Source: Kribbella voronezhensis (lineage in GTDB: Bacteria > Actinomycetota > Actinomycetes > Propionibacteriales > Kribbellaceae). From it: a stretch of 64,000 bases of DNA. Position 1 is the stretch's first letter. Every line of letters starts with the position of its first letter. The notes under the pieces were generated by a model. The model made no database searches, was not told the origin of the DNA, and saw nothing but the letters and a program-made list of their open reading frames with translations. The DNA lies in the NCBI RefSeq assembly GCF_004365175.1, contig NZ_SOCE01000002.1, positions 806,001 through 870,000 on the forward strand. The letters run 5' to 3'. This document shows positions 2,257 through 61,436 of the stretch, one piece after another. The translations under genes and the position numbers were made by a program.

Positions 2257-3606
2257 TCAGTGCACGCTGACGAGTTCGGAGGGGACGGGGAGATCGTCGA
2301 GGTTGTTGACGACAGTGGTCGCGCCGGCCGCCTGGAGGTCCTGCGGATGGCCGGTGAGATCCAGCCCGATGGTGAGGCCGAAGCCGCCGGCGCGGCTTGC
2401 GGCGATGCCTGCCGGTGAGCTTTCGACGACGACGGTCCGTCGTGGCCGGACGCCGAGGCGGCGCGCCGCGAGCAGGTAGCCCGCTGGATCGGGTGGGCCG
2501 GGCAGGCGCAGATCGGTCCAGGTGACCCGGTCGATCCGGATCTGGAACGTGTCCGCGAGTCCCGCGGCTTCGAGGAGCCCGGCGCAGTCGCGGTCGGCCG
2601 AAATCACCGCGCGATCCACTTGGCCGGCGTCCAGCCGCTCGATCAGCCGCCGGGTCGCCGCGGTGTCACTGACGACGCAGTCCAGCCCGAAGACGACCGC
2701 GTCGTACCGCTCGGGATCGATCGACAGCTCGTCCGCGGCGTGCTTGCCGGCGTTGCGCCGGGCCAGTACGACGGCCGCCACGACCAGCAGGCCACCTCCG
2801 AACACCAAGGCGAGCGGAGCTGCGGCGCGACCGGAGAACCAGGTGGTCACGGCGACCGGCAGGATCTGTACCAGCCCGATCGCGCCGACGATCACCACGA
2901 CGATCTCGCGCCAGAGCACCCCGGCGCAGATGAGTCCGATGGTCGTCACCAGCGAGAAGACGATCGCAGCGTCCTCGGGCATCGTGAACATCGCGCCGAA
3001 CACCAGGCCGGCGGCGGCGATCCCTTGGGTCAGGCGCTTGGCGGCGAACAGCCCAGCACGCCCGGCTGCCAGCCAGGCCGCTGAGACGACCCAGATTGCG
3101 ATGCCGGGCCAGGCAGCGCCGTGCAGGTGAGCACCGGCGGTGCCCGCCGCGATCAAGGTGCCCACGAAGGTTGCGAACTGTTGGAGCGCGGTCGGCTTCG
3201 CTGCCCAGAGTCCGGCGGCGTACAAAGCTGTGGCCACACCGGTCAGCAACGCGGTGTCCAGCGTTGGCCAGTGCAGCGCTTCGTGACCCAGCAAGGCCCA
3301 GAAGGCGGCGCCTGCGGCCGTCGACAGGAACCACAGAATCGCCCGCAGGCGCAGGGTGACAGCGTCGGCTCGCGCCGGAATCAGTTGGCCGGCAGCAAGG
3401 AGAGCCAGCGCGGTCGTGGCCACGATGACCAGCCGCGTGACGGTTCCGAGGTCGGGCCAGTACTGCGCCATGACCAGCATCGCGCCGACCAGCACCACCA
3501 CACCACCCAGATAGGCGAGTGCCTCGATCAGCACAGGGGTACGGCGAGTCGCCGGCCGCCCGGACAGTCGCGGCGGCGCTCCCGTTGATTCGCGCAACGG
3601 TCTCAT
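2257..3606 (-). CDS. polytopic membrane protein fused to a degenerate HAD-like domain
   Basis: A 449-residue fusion from the ATG at 3606. Residues about 20-290 form around ten hydrophobic helices resembling DUF2157-type membrane proteins. The cytosolic remainder is a HAD-superfamily domain of the beta-phosphoglucomutase type. In the position of HAD motif I (usually FDxDG) it reads VVFGLDCVVSDTA: the nucleophilic Asp is Gly, so phosphatase activity is unlikely. Later motifs are recognisable (VISADRD, RTVVVESSPAGIAASRAGG). An in-frame TTG at 3660 could extend the N-terminus by 18 residues, but a putative DosR-like box at 3642-3655 would then be coding. Function unknown; a ligand-sensing or scaffolding role is possible. 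Confidence 0.75.
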   Translation of the reverse strand: MRPLRESTGAPPRLSGRPATRRTPVLIEALAYLGGVVVLVGAMLVMAQYWPDLGTVTRLVIVATTALALLAAGQLIPARADAVTLRLRAILWFLSTAAGAAFWALLGHEALHWPTLDTALLTGVATALYAAGLWAAKPTALQQFATFVGTLIAAGTAGAHLHGAAWPGIAIWVVSAAWLAAGRAGLFAAKRLTQGIAAAGLVFGAMFTMPEDAAIVFSLVTTIGLICAGVLWREIVVVIVGAIGLVQILPVAVTTWFSGRAAAPLALVFGGGLLVVAAVVLARRNAGKHAADELSIDPERYDAVVFGLDCVVSDTAATRRLIERLDAGQVDRAVISADRDCAGLLEAAGLADTFQIRIDRVTWTDLRLPGPPDPAGYLLAARRLGVRPRRTVVVESSPAGIAASRAGGFGLTIGLDLTGHPQDLQAAGATTVVNNLDDLPVPSELVSVH

Positions 3607-3641
3607 GATCTGAGCGTCGCGAGATCTCCCCGGCTCGCACA

Positions 3642-3655
3642 GAGGCGAAAGTCCT
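3642..3655 (-). promoter_or_regulatory. weak DosR-like box before the membrane-HAD gene
   Basis: On the minus strand this reads AGGACTTTCGCCTC, two mismatches from GGGNCNNNNGNCCC, and keeps the GGACTTT half-site. It lies 36-49 bases before the ATG at 3606. Confidence 0.25.
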
Positions 3656-17433: not shown

Positions 17434-18635
17434 GGATCGCTTTGGTGTCGGAACACGCGAGTCCGCTGGCTGTCCTGGGCGGCGCCGACGCCGGTGGGCA
17501 GAACGTCCACGTGGCCGCGCTCGCGTCGGCCCTGGCTGATCGCGGCCACGACGTGGAGGTCTACACCCGCAGCGACGACGCAACGCTCCCGGAGCGGGTT
17601 CCGTTCGGACCCGGCGTCGACGTCGTCCACGTGCCGGCCGGACCGCCCGAACCGGTCGCGAAGGACGACCTGCTGCCGTACATGCCGGCGTTCGGCCGGT
17701 GGCTCGGAACACGCTGGTCGTCGGCCGTACCCGATGTCGTGCACGCGCACTTCTGGATGTCCGGTCTCGCCTGCGACCACGCTCGCCGGCTCACCGCGTT
17801 CCCGTTCGCGCAGACCTTTCATGCGCTGGGGGTGGTGAAACGACGTCACCAAGGTGACCGGGACACCAGTCCACCCGGCCGCCTGGAGATCGAGGCGACG
17901 CTGACCCGTACTGCGGACGCGGTGATCGCCACGGCGACGGACGAGGTGCGTGAACTGCTGGAACTGGGAGCGCCGGCCGAGTCGCTGCACGTCGTACCGT
18001 GTGGGGTCGAGCTGTTCGGTGGTGGTGCTGCCGACGACCGGTGGTGGCGAACCGGGCCGGGCGGACGGATCCTGTCCCTCGGGCGGCTGGTCGAGCGCAA
18101 GGGTGTCGACACCGTGATCGCGGCGCTGGCCGAGGTCCCCGGTGCCGAGCTGGTGGTGGCCGGCGGCCCTGTGGTTGCCTTTGACAACGACCCGGAGGTG
18201 CGCAGGCTGCGTGCCGAGGCTGATCGGCTCGGGGTGGCCGATCGGGTGCGGTTCATCGGTCCGGTGGCCCGCGGTGATGTCGCGGGGCTGATGTTGTCGG
18301 CGGACGTGGTGGCCTGCACCCCGTGGTACGAGCCGTTCGGCATCGTGCCGTTGGAGGCGATGGCCTGCGCCCGGCCAGTGGTCGGTGCGGCGGTCGGAGG
18401 GCTGCTGGACACCGTGGTGGACGGCGTCACCGGCCTCCTGGTTCCTCCTCGGGATCCCGGCCGGCTCGCGGCGGCCCTGCGTGACCTGCTGTCCGATCCC
18501 GGCCGGCGTGAACGGCTCGGCCGAGCAGGAGCCGCCCGGGTACGGCGTAACTACACGTGGCCGCGGGTCGCCGCGGCCACCGAGGAGATCTACCGGCGCA
18601 TCGGTGCGTCGGTCATCACCGGGAGGGTGTCCTGA
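17430..18635 (+). CDS. GT4 glycosyltransferase
   Basis: A 401-residue retaining GT-B enzyme of family 4. N-terminal GGADAGGQNVHVAALASALADRGHDVEVYTR is the acceptor-domain signature, also seen in sucrose-phosphate-synthase-like members. The donor domain has LGRLVERKGVDTVIAAL, DRVRFIGPV, and EPFGIVPLEAMACARPVVG with the EX7E pair. It probably adds a further sugar in the assembly of the operon's glycan. ATGA overlap with the gene before, TGATG with gmhA after. Confidence 0.9.
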   Translation: MRIALVSEHASPLAVLGGADAGGQNVHVAALASALADRGHDVEVYTRSDDATLPERVPFGPGVDVVHVPAGPPEPVAKDDLLPYMPAFGRWLGTRWSSAVPDVVHAHFWMSGLACDHARRLTAFPFAQTFHALGVVKRRHQGDRDTSPPGRLEIEATLTRTADAVIATATDEVRELLELGAPAESLHVVPCGVELFGGGAADDRWWRTGPGGRILSLGRLVERKGVDTVIAALAEVPGAELVVAGGPVVAFDNDPEVRRLRAEADRLGVADRVRFIGPVARGDVAGLMLSADVVACTPWYEPFGIVPLEAMACARPVVGAAVGGLLDTVVDGVTGLLVPPRDPGRLAAALRDLLSDPGRRERLGRAGAARVRRNYTWPRVAAATEEIYRRIGASVITGRVS

Positions 18636-19243
18636 TGGCGCGCTTCGGAACCGTCGCAGAGCACCTCGGCCACCTGCGCAACGGCCTGGCCAGCCTCGAC
18701 CGGCAGGCCGGCCTGATCGACAGCTGGGGACAACAGCTCACCACCGCGTTCGTCGCCGGTCACAAATTGCTTGCTGCTGGCAACGGTGGGAGCGCGGCCG
18801 AGGCGCAGCACCTGACCGCCGAGCTGGTTGGCCGGTTCGAGTGTGACCGTGCGCCGCTGCCGGCGATCGCGCTGCACGCGGAGACGTCCAGTCTGACAGC
18901 GATCTGCAACGACTTCGGGCCGGACGGGATCTTCGCCCGCCAGGTCAGGGCCCACGGCCGCCCGGGCGATGTCCTGATCCTGCTGTCGACGAGTGGCCGG
19001 AGCCGCAACCTGCTGGCCGCCGCGGCTGACGCACGGGACCGGCAGATGCAGGTCTGGGCGATGACCGGGCCGGGCCGCAGTCCGCTGTCGGACCTGGCCG
19101 ACCAGACCCTGGCCGTCGAGACAGCGGCACCGACCGCGGTCCAGGAGATCCACCTGATCGCCGTCCACGCGCTCTGCGCGGCGGTCGAGCGACATCTGCC
19201 GTCGGTGCGGTGGGCGGACCAGGCCGCCGAGGTGTCCCGATGA
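18635..19243 (+). CDS. gmhA: phosphoheptose isomerase (GmhA-like SIS protein)
   Basis: A 202-residue SIS-domain protein. Phosphoheptose isomerase converts sedoheptulose 7-phosphate to D-glycero-D-manno-heptose 7-phosphate, the first step of ADP- or GDP-heptose synthesis. The signature GNGGSAAEAQH is at residues 49-59, with LVGRFECDRAPLPAIAL after it (acidic residues that bind zinc in GmhA), LLSTSGRSRNLL in the phosphate loop and QEIHLIAVHALC near the end. The start at 18635 overlaps the GT4 stop by one base. HldE and the fused GmhB in the same operon complete the steps to ADP-heptose. Confidence 0.92.
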   Translation: MARFGTVAEHLGHLRNGLASLDRQAGLIDSWGQQLTTAFVAGHKLLAAGNGGSAAEAQHLTAELVGRFECDRAPLPAIALHAETSSLTAICNDFGPDGIFARQVRAHGRPGDVLILLSTSGRSRNLLAAAADARDRQMQVWAMTGPGRSPLSDLADQTLAVETAAPTAVQEIHLIAVHALCAAVERHLPSVRWADQAAEVSR

Positions 19244-20589
19244 CCGCGCGCGTGGTCGTGCTGGGGGATGTCCTGCTGGATCGGGACATCGAGGGTGAGG
19301 TCCGGCGGATCATGCCGGATGCTCCGGCCCCCGTGGTTGAGATCGGGTCGGAAAGAGATCGCGCCGGTGGCGCCGGTCTGGCAGCCGTGCTGCTGGACCG
19401 GCCAGGGATTTCGGTGCACCTGCTGACCGCGCTGGCCGATGACGAGCCCGCGAAGCGTTTGCTCAACCTTCTGACGCAGCGGATCCCGGTCACGTCGGTG
19501 CTGACCTCACCCGGCACCCGGTGCAAGACCAGGATCCGCAGCGGTGGGCAGTCCTTGCTGAGGATGGATGTCGAGGCCTCGGCGAGCAGTGACGGCAGCT
19601 GCGACATCGCCGCCCTGGAAGCGGCCCTGGACGAAGCGGATGCGCTGCTCGTGTCCGACTACGGCGGCGGCGTGCTGAACCACCCCGAGGTACGACGCGT
19701 TCTCCTCGACTGGGCAGGTCGCCGGCCAATGGTGTGGGACCCGCATCCGCGCGGAGCCGAGCCGGTAGCCGGGGCGACCGTGGTGACACCGAACAAGGCC
19801 GAAGCCGTCCGGTTCGGGTCCGCGGGAGTCGAGCACCCCGACCGGCTGGCCGTGGAGCTTCGCGAGCGATGGCAAGCCTGGTCGGTCGCCGTGACGGACG
19901 GCGGCAACGGCGTGTTCACGGCGAGCGGGGGAGCGCAGGCCCAGTTCACTCCGGTGCCGTTCAGATATCGCGGTGACAGTTGCGGCGCCGGAGACCGGTT
20001 CGCGGGCACGGTCGCTGCCAGACTCGGCGCGGGCGCGACGACGAGCGAGGCGGTCGAAGCCGCCGTACAGGACACTGCGGACTGGCTTGCTGCCGGGGGA
20101 GTGCAGGCGACCGCGGAGACCGTGTCTGTGGCGCAGAGCCTCGACGCCGAGGCGGTGGTCCGGCGGGTGCGTGCGGCCGGGGGAACAGTCGTGGCCACCG
20201 GCGGCTGCTTCGACATCCTGCATGCCGGCCACATCGCCTCGCTCGAGGCCGCAAGGAGCCTCGGTGACGCCCTGGTCGTTCTGCTGAACTCCGACGACAG
20301 CGTCCGGCGGCTCAAGGGCGACGGCCGGCCGGTGAACTCGACGGAGGACCGGTGCCGGGTCCTCACTTCCCTGCGGTGCGTGGATGCCGTGGTCGTCTTC
20401 GACGACGACGATCCGCGCGCGGCCCTGCAGCGACTGCGCCCGGACATCTGGGCCAAAGGTGGCGACTACACCGCCGAGATGTTGCCCGAGAACCCTCTGG
20501 TGACCAGCTGGGGTGGCCGAGTCGTCCTGATGCCGTACCTGCCGGGCCGCTCGACCACCGCGATCCTCGAGAAAGGAACCACCCGATGA
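19240..20589 (+). CDS. hldE: bifunctional heptose kinase/nucleotidylyltransferase (HldE)
   Basis: A 449-residue fusion. Residues 1 to about 300 are a PfkB-type kinase that would phosphorylate heptose 7-phosphate at C1: substrate loop near GGAGLAAV (43-50) and the catalytic GAGD at 249-252. Residues about 315-449 are a cytidylyltransferase-like domain, with TGGCFDILHAGH at 320-331, NSDDSVRRLKG and WAKGGDYTAEMLPE, which transfers AMP from ATP to heptose 1-phosphate. GmhB-type dephosphorylation, needed between the two, is supplied by the fusion at 14025-15479. ATGA overlaps on both sides. Confidence 0.92.
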   Translation: MTARVVVLGDVLLDRDIEGEVRRIMPDAPAPVVEIGSERDRAGGAGLAAVLLDRPGISVHLLTALADDEPAKRLLNLLTQRIPVTSVLTSPGTRCKTRIRSGGQSLLRMDVEASASSDGSCDIAALEAALDEADALLVSDYGGGVLNHPEVRRVLLDWAGRRPMVWDPHPRGAEPVAGATVVTPNKAEAVRFGSAGVEHPDRLAVELRERWQAWSVAVTDGGNGVFTASGGAQAQFTPVPFRYRGDSCGAGDRFAGTVAARLGAGATTSEAVEAAVQDTADWLAAGGVQATAETVSVAQSLDAEAVVRRVRAAGGTVVATGGCFDILHAGHIASLEAARSLGDALVVLLNSDDSVRRLKGDGRPVNSTEDRCRVLTSLRCVDAVVVFDDDDPRAALQRLRPDIWAKGGDYTAEMLPENPLVTSWGGRVVLMPYLPGRSTTAILEKGTTR

Positions 20590-57683: not shown

Positions 57684-58391
57684 ATGGCTGAGCTGGATCG
57701 GACCACCTTGCTGGCCCGGCTGGCGAGATTGATCGCCGACGACGACAACGGCCTGCAGCTGGAGACGCGTCTTTGCCGTGCCTATCTGGCGATGATGTCG
57801 GGAGACGGCGCGGCCCTCACGCTGTCCTACACCGAGCCGGAGCGGGTGACGCTCTGTACGACCGACGATCTGGCGGCCCGGCTGGAGGACCTGCAGGACG
57901 TGCTCGGCGAAGGGCCCGGGCCGACGGCGTACGTGACCGAGCAGATCGCGGTCGCCGACCTGCGGGCCGAGACCGGCCAGTGGCCGCTGTTCACCGACGC
58001 CGCGCGCAAGGTCCCGGGCGCCGCGGTCCTGTACGCCATCCCGATCCGGCCGTGGAACGACGGTGTCATCGGGGTGCTGACGATCCATCAGCACACGACG
58101 GAGTTGCCGGATGCGGGTCAGGCGCAGTTCCTGGCGAGCGCGATCGGTGCCGCCCTGGTCAAGGACCCACCGGTCGAGTTCTCCCTCGGCTCGGGGCCCT
58201 GGACGACCCGGTCGGAGATCCATCAGGCCACCGGCATGGTGGTGGCCCAGTTGCGGATCAGCCCCGACGACGCGCTCGCGCTGCTGCGGGCGCACGCGTT
58301 CTCCCACGACATCACCTTGGCGGCGGTGGCCGAACTCATCACCAGCCGGCGCCTGCACTTCACCGACGACGCCGAAAGCGAGACTCCATGA
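57684..58391 (+). CDS. GAF-ANTAR transcription antitermination protein (1)
   Basis: A 235-residue regulator. Residues about 15-165 form a GAF-like sensor domain (LEDLQDVLGEGPGPTAYVTEQIAVADLRAE; AIPIRPWNDGVIGVLTIHQH). Residues about 175-228 are an ANTAR domain (EIHQATGMVVAQLRISPDDALALLRAHAFSHDITLAAVAELI), a helix bundle that binds paired RNA hairpins and prevents termination. The signal is unknown. Overlaps the next ANTAR gene by ATGA. Confidence 0.92.
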   Translation: MAELDRTTLLARLARLIADDDNGLQLETRLCRAYLAMMSGDGAALTLSYTEPERVTLCTTDDLAARLEDLQDVLGEGPGPTAYVTEQIAVADLRAETGQWPLFTDAARKVPGAAVLYAIPIRPWNDGVIGVLTIHQHTTELPDAGQAQFLASAIGAALVKDPPVEFSLGSGPWTTRSEIHQATGMVVAQLRISPDDALALLRAHAFSHDITLAAVAELITSRRLHFTDDAESETP

Positions 58392-59089
58392 CTGCCGCTA
58401 CCGCTTCGCAAGCGTTCGTGGACGCCGCCGCGGCCATGGTCCAGCAAGACGATGTCGCCGACACCCTGACCCGGCTACTGGCCGACTGCGCGAAGTTCAC
58501 CGCCGCGGACGCGATCGGGCTCCTGGTCAAACACGAGGACGGCTCGCTGGAGATCCTGAGCGCCACCTCGCACCACGCGGCGCAGCTCGAGCTCTACCAG
58601 CTCCAGCAGGACTCCGGGCCATGCGTCGACGTGGCTCAGAACGGCTCCGCGTTGTCGGTCGCCGGCGATGCGGAGCTCGTCGAGCGCTGGGGTCGGGTGG
58701 GTGAGGCGATCATCGCCGCCGGATACCACGCCGTGCACGCGGTCCCACTGCGGTGGCACGGCCGGCTGATCGGTGCGATGAACGCCTTTCACAGCGCGCC
58801 GGAGACCGCCGACGGAGAGGCCGAGCAGCTGACCCAGGCCTTCGCGGACATCGCCGCCGTGGTGATCATCCAGTCCCACGAACTCACTCCCGGTCAGCTC
58901 GACGAGCGGATCCGGACGGCGCTGGCCGGCCGGACGGTGATCGAGCAGGCCAAAGGCGTCCTCGCCCAGCTCTCGCGCGTGGACATGGCCGCCGCCTACG
59001 ACCTGCTCGTCCGGCGAGCAACCGACGGCGGCGTCAGCCTGACCCAGGCGGCGAACGGGATCATCGGGGAAGCGCGCAAGCGGCCGTGA
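58388..59089 (+). CDS. GAF-ANTAR transcription antitermination protein (2)
   Basis: A 233-residue protein with the same layout: GAF (residues about 20-160: ADAIGLLVKHEDGSLEILSATSHHAAQLELYQLQQDSGPCVDVAQNG, then AIIAAGYHAVHAVPLRWHGRLIGAMNAFH) and ANTAR (residues about 172-228: VIEQAKGVLAQLSRVDMAAAYDLLVRRATDGGVSLTQAANGII). Made from the same message as protein 1, judged by the ATGA overlap at 58388-58391; the two may form a heterodimer. Confidence 0.93.
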   Translation: MTAATASQAFVDAAAAMVQQDDVADTLTRLLADCAKFTAADAIGLLVKHEDGSLEILSATSHHAAQLELYQLQQDSGPCVDVAQNGSALSVAGDAELVERWGRVGEAIIAAGYHAVHAVPLRWHGRLIGAMNAFHSAPETADGEAEQLTQAFADIAAVVIIQSHELTPGQLDERIRTALAGRTVIEQAKGVLAQLSRVDMAAAYDLLVRRATDGGVSLTQAANGIIGEARKRP

Positions 59090-59152
59090 TCAGTACTGCG
59101 CCGCCGGCGCGGCCGATCGCTTGGAACGACTCTGGAGGGGTACCGGCCGGAA

Positions 59153-59854
59153 ATGGATGATCGGGAACTGATGGAGGCTGCGGCCCGGCTGGTGAAGTCG
59201 CTGACGCCGGGCGACCTGGACCACACGCTGAGCCGGATCACGGCGGCGGCGGTCGAGGTCCTCCCGGAGGTGGAGTACGCGAGCATCACGGTCAAGCACA
59301 GCGACGGCCGGCTGGAGACGGTGGCGCCGACCGACGAGGTGCTGTGGGGTGTCGATGCAGCGCAGTACGACCTGCAGGAAGGGCCTTGTTACGAGGCGGC
59401 TGTCGACACGGCGCACGTCATCTCGCCCGACCTGGCCGCCGACGCGCGGTTCCCGCGGTACGCCACGACCGCCGTGGCGGTCGGGATCCGGGCCCAGGCA
59501 GGGCTCCGGCTCTTCGACGCACCGAGATCGCAGGGTGCGCTCAATCTCTACTCCACCGAAGTCGGTTCGTTCACGGACCTGGGATCGCTCGGGCAGCTCT
59601 TCGCCCATCAGTCGGCACTGGCGATCGGATACGCCCAGGAGGTCGACAACCTGCAGGTGGCGCTGCAGACCCGGCGGACGATCGGGCAGGCCATCGGGAT
59701 CCTGATGGAGCGCTACAGCCTGACCGACCAACGGGCGTTCGCCTTCCTGACCAGACTTTCCCAGCACGGCAACGTCAAGCTCAACCGGGTGGCCGAGCAG
59801 CTCGTCGGCGATGCCGAGAACAAGGGCGAACGCGGTACGGGCCAGGATCGCTGA
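59153..59854 (+). CDS. GAF-ANTAR transcription antitermination protein (3)
   Basis: A 233-residue GAF-ANTAR protein. GAF: PEVEYASITVKHSDGRLETVAPTDE, DLQEGPCYEAAVDTAHVISPDLA, RLFDAPRSQGALNLYSTE. ANTAR: RTIGQAIGILMERYSLTDQRAFAFLTRLSQHGNVKLNRVAEQLV. The sequence is closer to protein 4 (60747) than to proteins 1 and 2. GGAGGGG lies 12 bases before the ATG at 59153, a longer spacing than usual. It converges on the STAS-ANTAR gene with seven bases between. Confidence 0.92.
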   Translation: MDDRELMEAAARLVKSLTPGDLDHTLSRITAAAVEVLPEVEYASITVKHSDGRLETVAPTDEVLWGVDAAQYDLQEGPCYEAAVDTAHVISPDLAADARFPRYATTAVAVGIRAQAGLRLFDAPRSQGALNLYSTEVGSFTDLGSLGQLFAHQSALAIGYAQEVDNLQVALQTRRTIGQAIGILMERYSLTDQRAFAFLTRLSQHGNVKLNRVAEQLVGDAENKGERGTGQDR

Positions 59855-59861
59855 CCCGGCC

Positions 59862-60578
59862 TCAAGCCGTGTAGTTGCCGCTCCGGAGCCCGGCGGCGAT
59901 GTCGACCAGCAGCGCGTCGGTCGTGACCGGTTCGAGCTGTCCGCCTTGCCGCTGGCGCACCGCTGCCACGAAGTGCTCCGCGAGGACACGCAACGGAACT
60001 CTGCTGTTGCGCGAGTGCCAGGTGAGCATCGCGAACGCCGCGTCGGCCTCCAGCCCGTAGACCGCCATCAGGATCCCCTTCGCTTGATCGATGGTTGCCC
60101 GGGACAACAGCGCCCGGTGGAGCTGCCGTACTTCGGCCAGCAGGGTCTGCTGATCGGGCAGCGCGGCTCCCGGTGTGGCCAGCATCCCCTCGACGGCCTC
60201 GGCGACCGTCTCGAACGTCCGGAGCTGCTGGGGGCGATCACCGCAGAGCCGGTGCAGAAGCAGGCGCTGCGCCCGGCGGAAACCGGCGACCCCGACCGGT
60301 AACCCGGCCGCACTGTGGACGACGGCCTCGGCCAGCGCCGTCAGCCCGGTTTCGTCCGAAGGGGCGAGCGTCGTCGCGTCGATCAGGATGCGCTCGGGTC
60401 GCTGAGTCGACGCGTCGTGCAGGATCGAGCGCAGCGGCCGGCCCGAGCGGCTGGTGAGCCGGCCGATCAGCCGGGCGATCAGCAACGGGGGAGTGAAATC
60501 CAGGTCGACCTCGAGGTCGGAGCACGGCCGGGCCGCCCAGCGGAACCGTGGTCCGGGACTGTCAGGGGATGGTTGCAC
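59862..60578 (-). CDS. STAS-ANTAR hybrid regulator
   Basis: A 238-residue protein on the opposite strand. Residues about 20-120 look like a STAS/anti-sigma-antagonist-like domain (FTPPLLIARLIGRLTSRSGRPLRSIL; ERILIDATTLAPSDETGLTALAEAV), followed by an ANTAR domain (residues about 155-212: ATIDQAKGILMAVYGLEADAAFAMLTWHSRNSRVPLRVLAEHFV). It could link partner-switching stress signals to RNA antitermination. GTG start at 60578 with GAGG seven bases upstream. Confidence 0.88.
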   Translation of the reverse strand: MQPSPDSPGPRFRWAARPCSDLEVDLDFTPPLLIARLIGRLTSRSGRPLRSILHDASTQRPERILIDATTLAPSDETGLTALAEAVVHSAAGLPVGVAGFRRAQRLLLHRLCGDRPQQLRTFETVAEAVEGMLATPGAALPDQQTLLAEVRQLHRALLSRATIDQAKGILMAVYGLEADAAFAMLTWHSRNSRVPLRVLAEHFVAAVRQRQGGQLEPVTTDALLVDIAAGLRSGNYTA

Positions 60579-60746
60579 CGCAAATCCTCACTGGCGAGGT
60601 GGGATCCAGGCTGCGCACTCAACCTGTGTCCAAGGTAGGCAGGCCACGCGCTTTGCGTCCAGGCGAAGAGCGCCGTCGGCAACGGCCCGGATCAGGCGTA
60701 CTGTCGAAGACATCCCATTCAGCTCCTCCGGACGGAGGGCCAGGAC

Positions 60747-61436
60747 ATGGAGCTGCGCGAACTCATCGCCGTGATGACGGACGTCGCCGAGACGCTGCAG
60801 TTACCGATCGACCTGACCGATGCCCTCGCCGTGATCACCCGCTCGGCGGCGGAGTCCGTTCCCGGGGTCGATCACGTCAGCATCTCGGTGACGGCGAGGA
60901 ATCACCAGATCCAGACACTGGCCCCCACTGATCCGGTGGCCGTCCGTGCCGACGAACTGCAGTACACACTGCGGGAAGGTCCGTGTTACGAGGCGGTCCA
61001 CGGCCGGCCGGTCGTCCAGGTGGACGACCTCGCCACCGACCCGCGCTGGCCGAGCTACGGAGCCCAGGCGGCCTGCCTGTTCGGGCTGGGATCGCAGCTG
61101 GCCTTCCAGTTCGAGGCCGCACCACACGTCCGGGGCGCACTGAACCTGTACTTCGACCGTCCGTCCGCGATCGACCCCGAAACCCGCCAGTTCGGCATGA
61201 TGTTCGCCCGGCTGGTCGCGCTCGCGCTCGGCTGGGCCCGGCAAGGCGAGACGATGACCCGGGCGCTGCAGTCGCGCACCACGATCGGGCAGGCCGTCGG
61301 CATCCTGATGGAGCGCTACCGGCTGGACGACGACCGCGCCTTCTCCTTCCTGGTCCGCCTGTCCCAGTCGACCAACGTCAAACTCCACGACGTCGCCGCC
61401 GGCATCATCACCGACACCGTCAACCACGCCGGCTGA
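60747..61436 (+). CDS. GAF-ANTAR transcription antitermination protein (4)
   Basis: A 229-residue GAF-ANTAR protein very similar in plan to protein 3 (GVDHVSISVTARNHQIQTLAPTDPV; TLREGPCYEAVHGRPVVQVDDLA; RTTIGQAVGILMERYRLDDDRAFSFLVRLSQSTNVKLHDVAAGII). The shared ILMERYxLxDxRAF core suggests a local duplication. ATG 60747 after GGAGGGCCAGGAC. It is divergent from the STAS-ANTAR gene. Confidence 0.92.
   Translation: MELRELIAVMTDVAETLQLPIDLTDALAVITRSAAESVPGVDHVSISVTARNHQIQTLAPTDPVAVRADELQYTLREGPCYEAVHGRPVVQVDDLATDPRWPSYGAQAACLFGLGSQLAFQFEAAPHVRGALNLYFDRPSAIDPETRQFGMMFARLVALALGWARQGETMTRALQSRTTIGQAVGILMERYRLDDDRAFSFLVRLSQSTNVKLHDVAAGIITDTVNHAG

Follow-up and report, generated by a model that had tools for sequence, protein, structure and literature searches.

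A DUF2157-type membrane protein of Kribbella carrying a cap-less and presumably inactive beta-PGM core

In the stretch of Kribbella voronezhensis DNA analysed here (64,000 nucleotides, referred to as the window), one gene joins a DUF2157-type membrane domain to a HAD tail whose source, judged by sequence, is clearly the beta-PGM of a GH65 disaccharide-phosphorylase operon. With moderate confidence, this gene is interpreted as a lineage-specific fusion in which the tail would be a folded, non-catalytic domain, serving at most for protein contact and not as a sugar-phosphate receptor. The relevant features, all on the reverse strand, are:

2257..3606 (-): fusion gene of 449 aa with ATG start, encoding a DUF2157-type ten-helix membrane domain and a cap-less beta-PGM-like HAD tail
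2749..3543 (-): membrane domain, residues 22-286, ten predicted helices (PF09925, hydropathy, AlphaFold2)
2284..2721 (-): HAD tail, residues 296-441, relative of the GH65-operon beta-PGM with the cap (about 78 aa) deleted
2677..2691 (-): motif I, residues 306-310, FGLDC (FDLDG in free beta-PGM), nucleophile Asp replaced by Gly307
2494..2496 (-): motif III position, residue 371, Lys replaced by Pro
2419..2424 (-): motif IV, residues 395-396, Glu-Asp replaced by Glu-Ser
3639..3655 (-): weak DosR-like box AGGACTTTCGCCTCTGT, 32 nt 5' of the fusion start codon
1649..2077 (-): Hsp20 gene directly 3' of the fusion gene on the same strand, a dormancy-type context

The fusion is a real coding sequence, since G+C at the three codon positions across the tail is about 0.77/0.52/0.86 (225-nt blocks) and full-length homologues of 47% and 42% identity, devoid of internal stops, are present in two other Kribbella genomes. 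These homologues and the single frame also rule out two overlapping genes. Separate genes in relatives, which a sequence-only reading of this DNA had named as a possible objection to its interpretation, do exist (DUF2157 alone, beta-PGM alone).

Residues 300-408 of the protein match the PF00702 HAD hydrolase family above its gathering score (E 8e-8), and the NCBIfam beta-PGM family matches the tail at 8.9e-13, which is under the model's own cut-off. In both sequence and fold, the tail is closest to beta-PGMs of HAD class C1 (M. tuberculosis Rv3400, PDB 8h5s, at 1e-14; L. lactis, PDB 1lvh), and a Foldseek search with an AlphaFold2 model returned mycobacterial beta-PGM first and OtsB2 second. 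This model, obtained from a two-row alignment, is poor (mean pLDDT 48, tail 55-82) and good only for a helix count and a rough fold match; to that extent, the structure prediction proposed earlier yielded ten helices and a beta-PGM-like tail fold with alternating strands and helices over residues 303-433. By profile, PDB, tree and fold matches alike, the window tail shares common descent and the core fold with beta-PGM. It differs from beta-PGM in lacking the cap, the motif I Asp, the motif III Lys and the motif IV Asp, and in being fused to a membrane domain.

The origin of the tail can be traced within the genus. The window genome carries, 43 kb from the fusion, an intact beta-PGM gene of 252 residues which overlaps by 4 nt the start of a gene for a GH65 phosphorylase of 797 residues, and this beta-PGM and the window tail are 52-55% identical. 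In Kribbella sp. VKM Ac-2568 (genome G019), the fusion itself occupies the beta-PGM slot and ends within the first codons of GH65, again with a 4-nt overlap. Comparison of this fusion locus with the beta-PGM locus revealed DNA homology over 193 bp of promoter, which ends about 33 nt ahead of the start codon and picks up again about 33 nt into the beta-PGM frame, with about 920 inserted bases in between. The membrane segment has thus been inserted behind the promoter and ahead of the main part of beta-PGM. Phylogenetic analysis likewise groups the tails with operon beta-PGMs; support is modest, and the window tail and that of the third genome (G032) sit on long branches.

Full-length fusions occur in 3 of 38 Kribbella genomes, namely those of the window, G019 and G032. 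None was detected in 295 order-level genomes using the tail as query or in 395 class-level genomes, samples drawn from larger groups in which absence is no proof; a wider scan of genome contigs returned only Kribbella sp. VKM Ac-2568. A further genome (G033, L007 1489-2064, reverse strand) encodes a cap-less HAD protein of 192 residues with all motifs and a remnant of the fusion's last membrane helix; judged by its sequence, this protein is best regarded as a copy from which the membrane part has been lost. The GH65 subfamily is found in nine of the 38 genomes, and all seven genomes harbouring the DUF2157 subfamily, fused or not, are among these nine. The hypergeometric chance of this co-occurrence is about 3e-6 (36/12,620,256) if relatedness is ignored, and it may perhaps reflect nothing beyond shared island membership and relatedness. 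GH65 is located 43 kb from the fusion in the window genome and about 80 kb from it in G032.

The islands in question also carry genes for Acg-type nitroreductases, universal stress proteins, Hsp20 and cation ATPases, a gene set which recalls the mycobacterial DosR regulon, whose listed members include Rv2005c, Rv2006, Rv2031c and Rv2032 (PMC2867773). A DosR-like box, G[GT]GACCTTNGGCCCTG, is situated 31-33 nt 5' of the start codon of the G019 and G032 fusions, of the G033 gene and of two beta-PGM genes; strong boxes are paired in G019 and G033, and the GH65 genes of G012 and G013 are likewise preceded by such boxes. The box of the window fusion is a weak form at the distance shared with its relatives, an equally good site at 31-33 nt having a chance of about 2e-4. 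No convincing box was recognised upstream of tailless DUF2157 genes. Searching the window with simple DosR palindrome patterns (GGGACNNNNGTCCC) was of no use, whereas the genus-specific form did find boxes; a literature search for Kribbella together with DosR returned nothing. Further DosR-like boxes at window positions 1168, 1228, 35831 and 37131 stand before genes for a SHOCT-like small membrane protein, a small membrane protein and a universal stress protein. Elsewhere in the window, translations at 18635-20589 resemble a phosphoheptose isomerase and an HldE-type kinase, encoded inside a glycosyltransferase/carbamoyltransferase cluster (12.3-21.3 kb), which is unusual for an actinobacterium, and a run of short genes at 57684-61436 has translations resembling GAF and STAS regulatory proteins.

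M. tuberculosis OtsB1 (Rv2006) contains a beta-PGM joined to GH65. Known beta-PGM/GH65 pairs and fusions of this kind have their two partner genes and a DosR-type setting in common with the Kribbella case, but there the beta-PGM is soluble and linked to GH65, while that of the Kribbella fusion is damaged and attached to a membrane protein. In other actinobacteria, beta-PGM-like matches were encountered in open frames of 1,000 to 1,420 residues (L048, L049, L074, L077, L078 and L081), which are probably beta-PGM/GH65 fusions.

As regards the membrane half, AlphaFold2 secondary structure places ten helices, at low confidence, within residues 22-286, nine of which pass a hydropathy scan, the tenth being weak. 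PF09925 (DUF2157) matches the window protein with E 8.9e-5 and 22.7 bits, under the gathering score of 32.4, whereas the tailless orthologues L005 and L008 exceed it with 43.4 and 40.1. The membrane part without tail, matching the DUF2157 profile, is encoded in four genomes (G012, G013, G025 and G030) at 37-40% identity to that of the window. Judged by these matches, the window membrane half is of the same descent as the DUF2157 orthologues, though below the Pfam cut-off. Basic segments of membrane proteins reside on the cytoplasmic side (positive-inside rule). As the window protein has an arginine-rich N-terminus and a basic stretch past its last helix, both of its ends would be cytoplasmic. 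DUF2157 has been unified with the LiaI-LiaF-type membrane domain, which was called sensory (PMC11237479). The fusion resembles DUF2157 proteins (PF09925, with a LiaF-type TM region; PMC11237479) through its tailless orthologues, and differs from them in its sub-cut-off score, in lacking the N-terminal cytoplasmic stretch and in its extra HAD tail. Most likely, the membrane part does the main work of the fusion protein.

The sequence-only reading had drawn attention to motif I, FGLDC, with Gly in place of the nucleophilic Asp, and had described the protein as a dead HAD domain on a ten-helix membrane protein. The substitution was confirmed as Gly307, and the case for a dead domain is stronger than stated at the time, as three of the four motifs and the cap are lost; the changes at motif III (Pro371) and motif IV (Ser396) and the missing cap had been overlooked. 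General acid Asp309 of motif I and Ser336 of motif II are retained in the window tail, and the second motif I Asp and the motif II Ser are kept in all three fused tails. At motif III, where the Lys of HAD enzymes binds phosphate, Pro is found in the window and in G032, and Lys in G019 and in 24 of 24 free homologues. Motif IV reads Glu-Ser in the window, Glu-Ile in G019 and Ser-Gly in G032, compared to Glu-Asp in 24/24 free homologues, so that its second acid is absent from every fused tail. The C1 cap between motifs I and II, which in this class of HAD enzymes is the source of substrate specificity, is also absent from 3/3 fusions (about 78 residues relative to the window genome's own beta-PGM). 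With motif III Lys, motif IV Asp and cap all lost, the window tail looks dead even apart from Gly307. Both other fusions retain the motif I Asp (FDLD), as does the G033 protein; homologues with this Asp are what the sequence-only reading had named as evidence against itself. Gly is thus private to the window genome, which rules out loss of the nucleophile as a conserved family trait; the alignment of homologues suggested at the outset supports the dead domain, not the Gly as its common mark. The HAD tail would be inactive or badly impaired in every fused lineage, by different sets of mutations.

Evolutionary rates agree with faster evolution of the tail. Its dN/dS is 0.54-0.62 among the fusions (window-G019 0.58, window-G032 0.62) versus 0.09 between two intact operon beta-PGMs, and in every fusion pair it is higher than that of the membrane part (0.43-0.50), these rates being rough, with synonymous sites near saturation and three fusions only. 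Together with the different catalytic residues lost in each lineage, the long branches of the tails (0.86 and 1.73 vs 0.02-0.08 for free beta-PGM) and the very narrow distribution, they are what an accidental fusion would leave behind if the tail were a pure passenger, a decaying enzyme part with no role beyond being harmless to the membrane protein. This explanation is rather unlikely, as three lineages with about half of their residues different have all kept the frame open and the hydrophobic core exceeds neutral expectation in two of three tails, the two most diverged ones. Of 33 positions that almost every free homologue fills with a hydrophobic residue, 91% are preserved in the window tail, as opposed to 75% in neutral simulations (p about 0.03), and 94% in the G032 tail, as opposed to 70% (p below 0.003); the G019 tail was indistinguishable from neutral simulation. 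This points to selection, modest in strength, which would act on the fold of the tail and not on catalysis. Fold conservation is clear in the G032 tail only and marginal in the window tail, and part of it may have been inherited from the time before decay. The intact-looking, cap-less tail of the G033 protein would fit catalytic use in that genome and counts against the interpretation favoured here.

A sugar-phosphate receptor signalling via the membrane part, for which the earlier reading had proposed trehalose 6-phosphate or glucose 1-phosphate as ligands, is improbable. Pseudoenzymes often retain ligand binding, all three tails still have the Ser of motif II and the second Asp of motif I, and the membrane domain belongs to a group described as sensory (PMC11237479). 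Nevertheless, a receptor is disfavoured because specificity cap, phosphate-binding Lys and metal ligand are missing from the window tail; of the three fusions, none has the cap or the second motif IV acid, and only that of G019 retains the Lys. That the tail is still an enzyme using other residues, or that Gly stems from a sequencing error in an active protein, is very improbable: Asp to Gly is one base change (GAC to GGC) and five of the six catalytic residues are still present in the G019 tail, but the Gly codon has no bearing on the Lys-to-Pro and Asp-to-Ser changes at other motifs, no cap is present and the metal-binding Asp is gone from 3/3 fused tails. A sequencing error or frameshift as sole cause of the dead domain is ruled out, motifs III and IV being broken independently.

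The trehalose lead probably derives from likeness to the N-terminal accessory domain of mycobacterial OtsB2, which aligns with the window tail over 64 aa (PDB 5gvx, E 1e-9). Like the tail, this domain comprises a short HAD-like core with a broken motif IV (VVVSAHSAGV vs VVVEDALAGV) that is joined to another domain; in contrast to the tail, it is shorter and precedes a soluble phosphatase instead of following a membrane domain. From our alignment it looks like another HAD relic, and since OtsB2 without its N-terminal domain loses 70% of its activity (PMC11046441), it would set a precedent for a HAD relic that is of consequence to the protein to which it is attached.

For the preferred reading, a lineage-specific fusion with a folded, non-catalytic tail, the following course of events is proposed. 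A DUF2157-type membrane segment would have entered the first gene of a beta-PGM/GH65 operon within a DosR-like dormancy-type island, behind the beta-PGM promoter and with loss of the beta-PGM cap, giving rise to a ten-helix membrane protein with a beta-PGM core presumably exposed to the cytoplasm. Freed from catalysis, this core could then have lost different active-site residues in each lineage; in that of the window, the losses would comprise the nucleophilic Asp of motif I, the Lys of motif III and the second acid of motif IV. What remains may at most establish protein contact, for instance towards GH65 phosphorylase, the usual partner of beta-PGM, although such a docking role, suggested by operon and co-occurrence, is a guess. 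Its most specific version, in which the dead beta-PGM core is a membrane docking module that holds GH65 or an oligomer at the membrane in low-oxygen dormancy, is doubtful. If true, it would represent an adaptor that arose when an enzyme was broken on the spot, within the very operon to which it belonged.

Pseudoenzymes arising from domain fusion are known as such; new is the combination of a DUF2157-type domain with a cap-less beta-PGM, seen in three genomes of the soil bacterium Kribbella only. It constitutes a clear, small case of an enzyme turned non-enzyme, the new function of which is unproven, and it links the phosphorolysis of disaccharides in islands of the dormancy type with a so far uncharacterised subfamily of DUF2157 membrane proteins. 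Within a single genus, the stages are on display, from intact beta-PGM with GH65, via a fusion in the operon slot that lacks one catalytic residue, to two fusions elsewhere that lack three, and further to a released cap-less copy with all motifs (G033). Hence, the step from enzyme to pseudoenzyme becomes testable with a handful of proteins.
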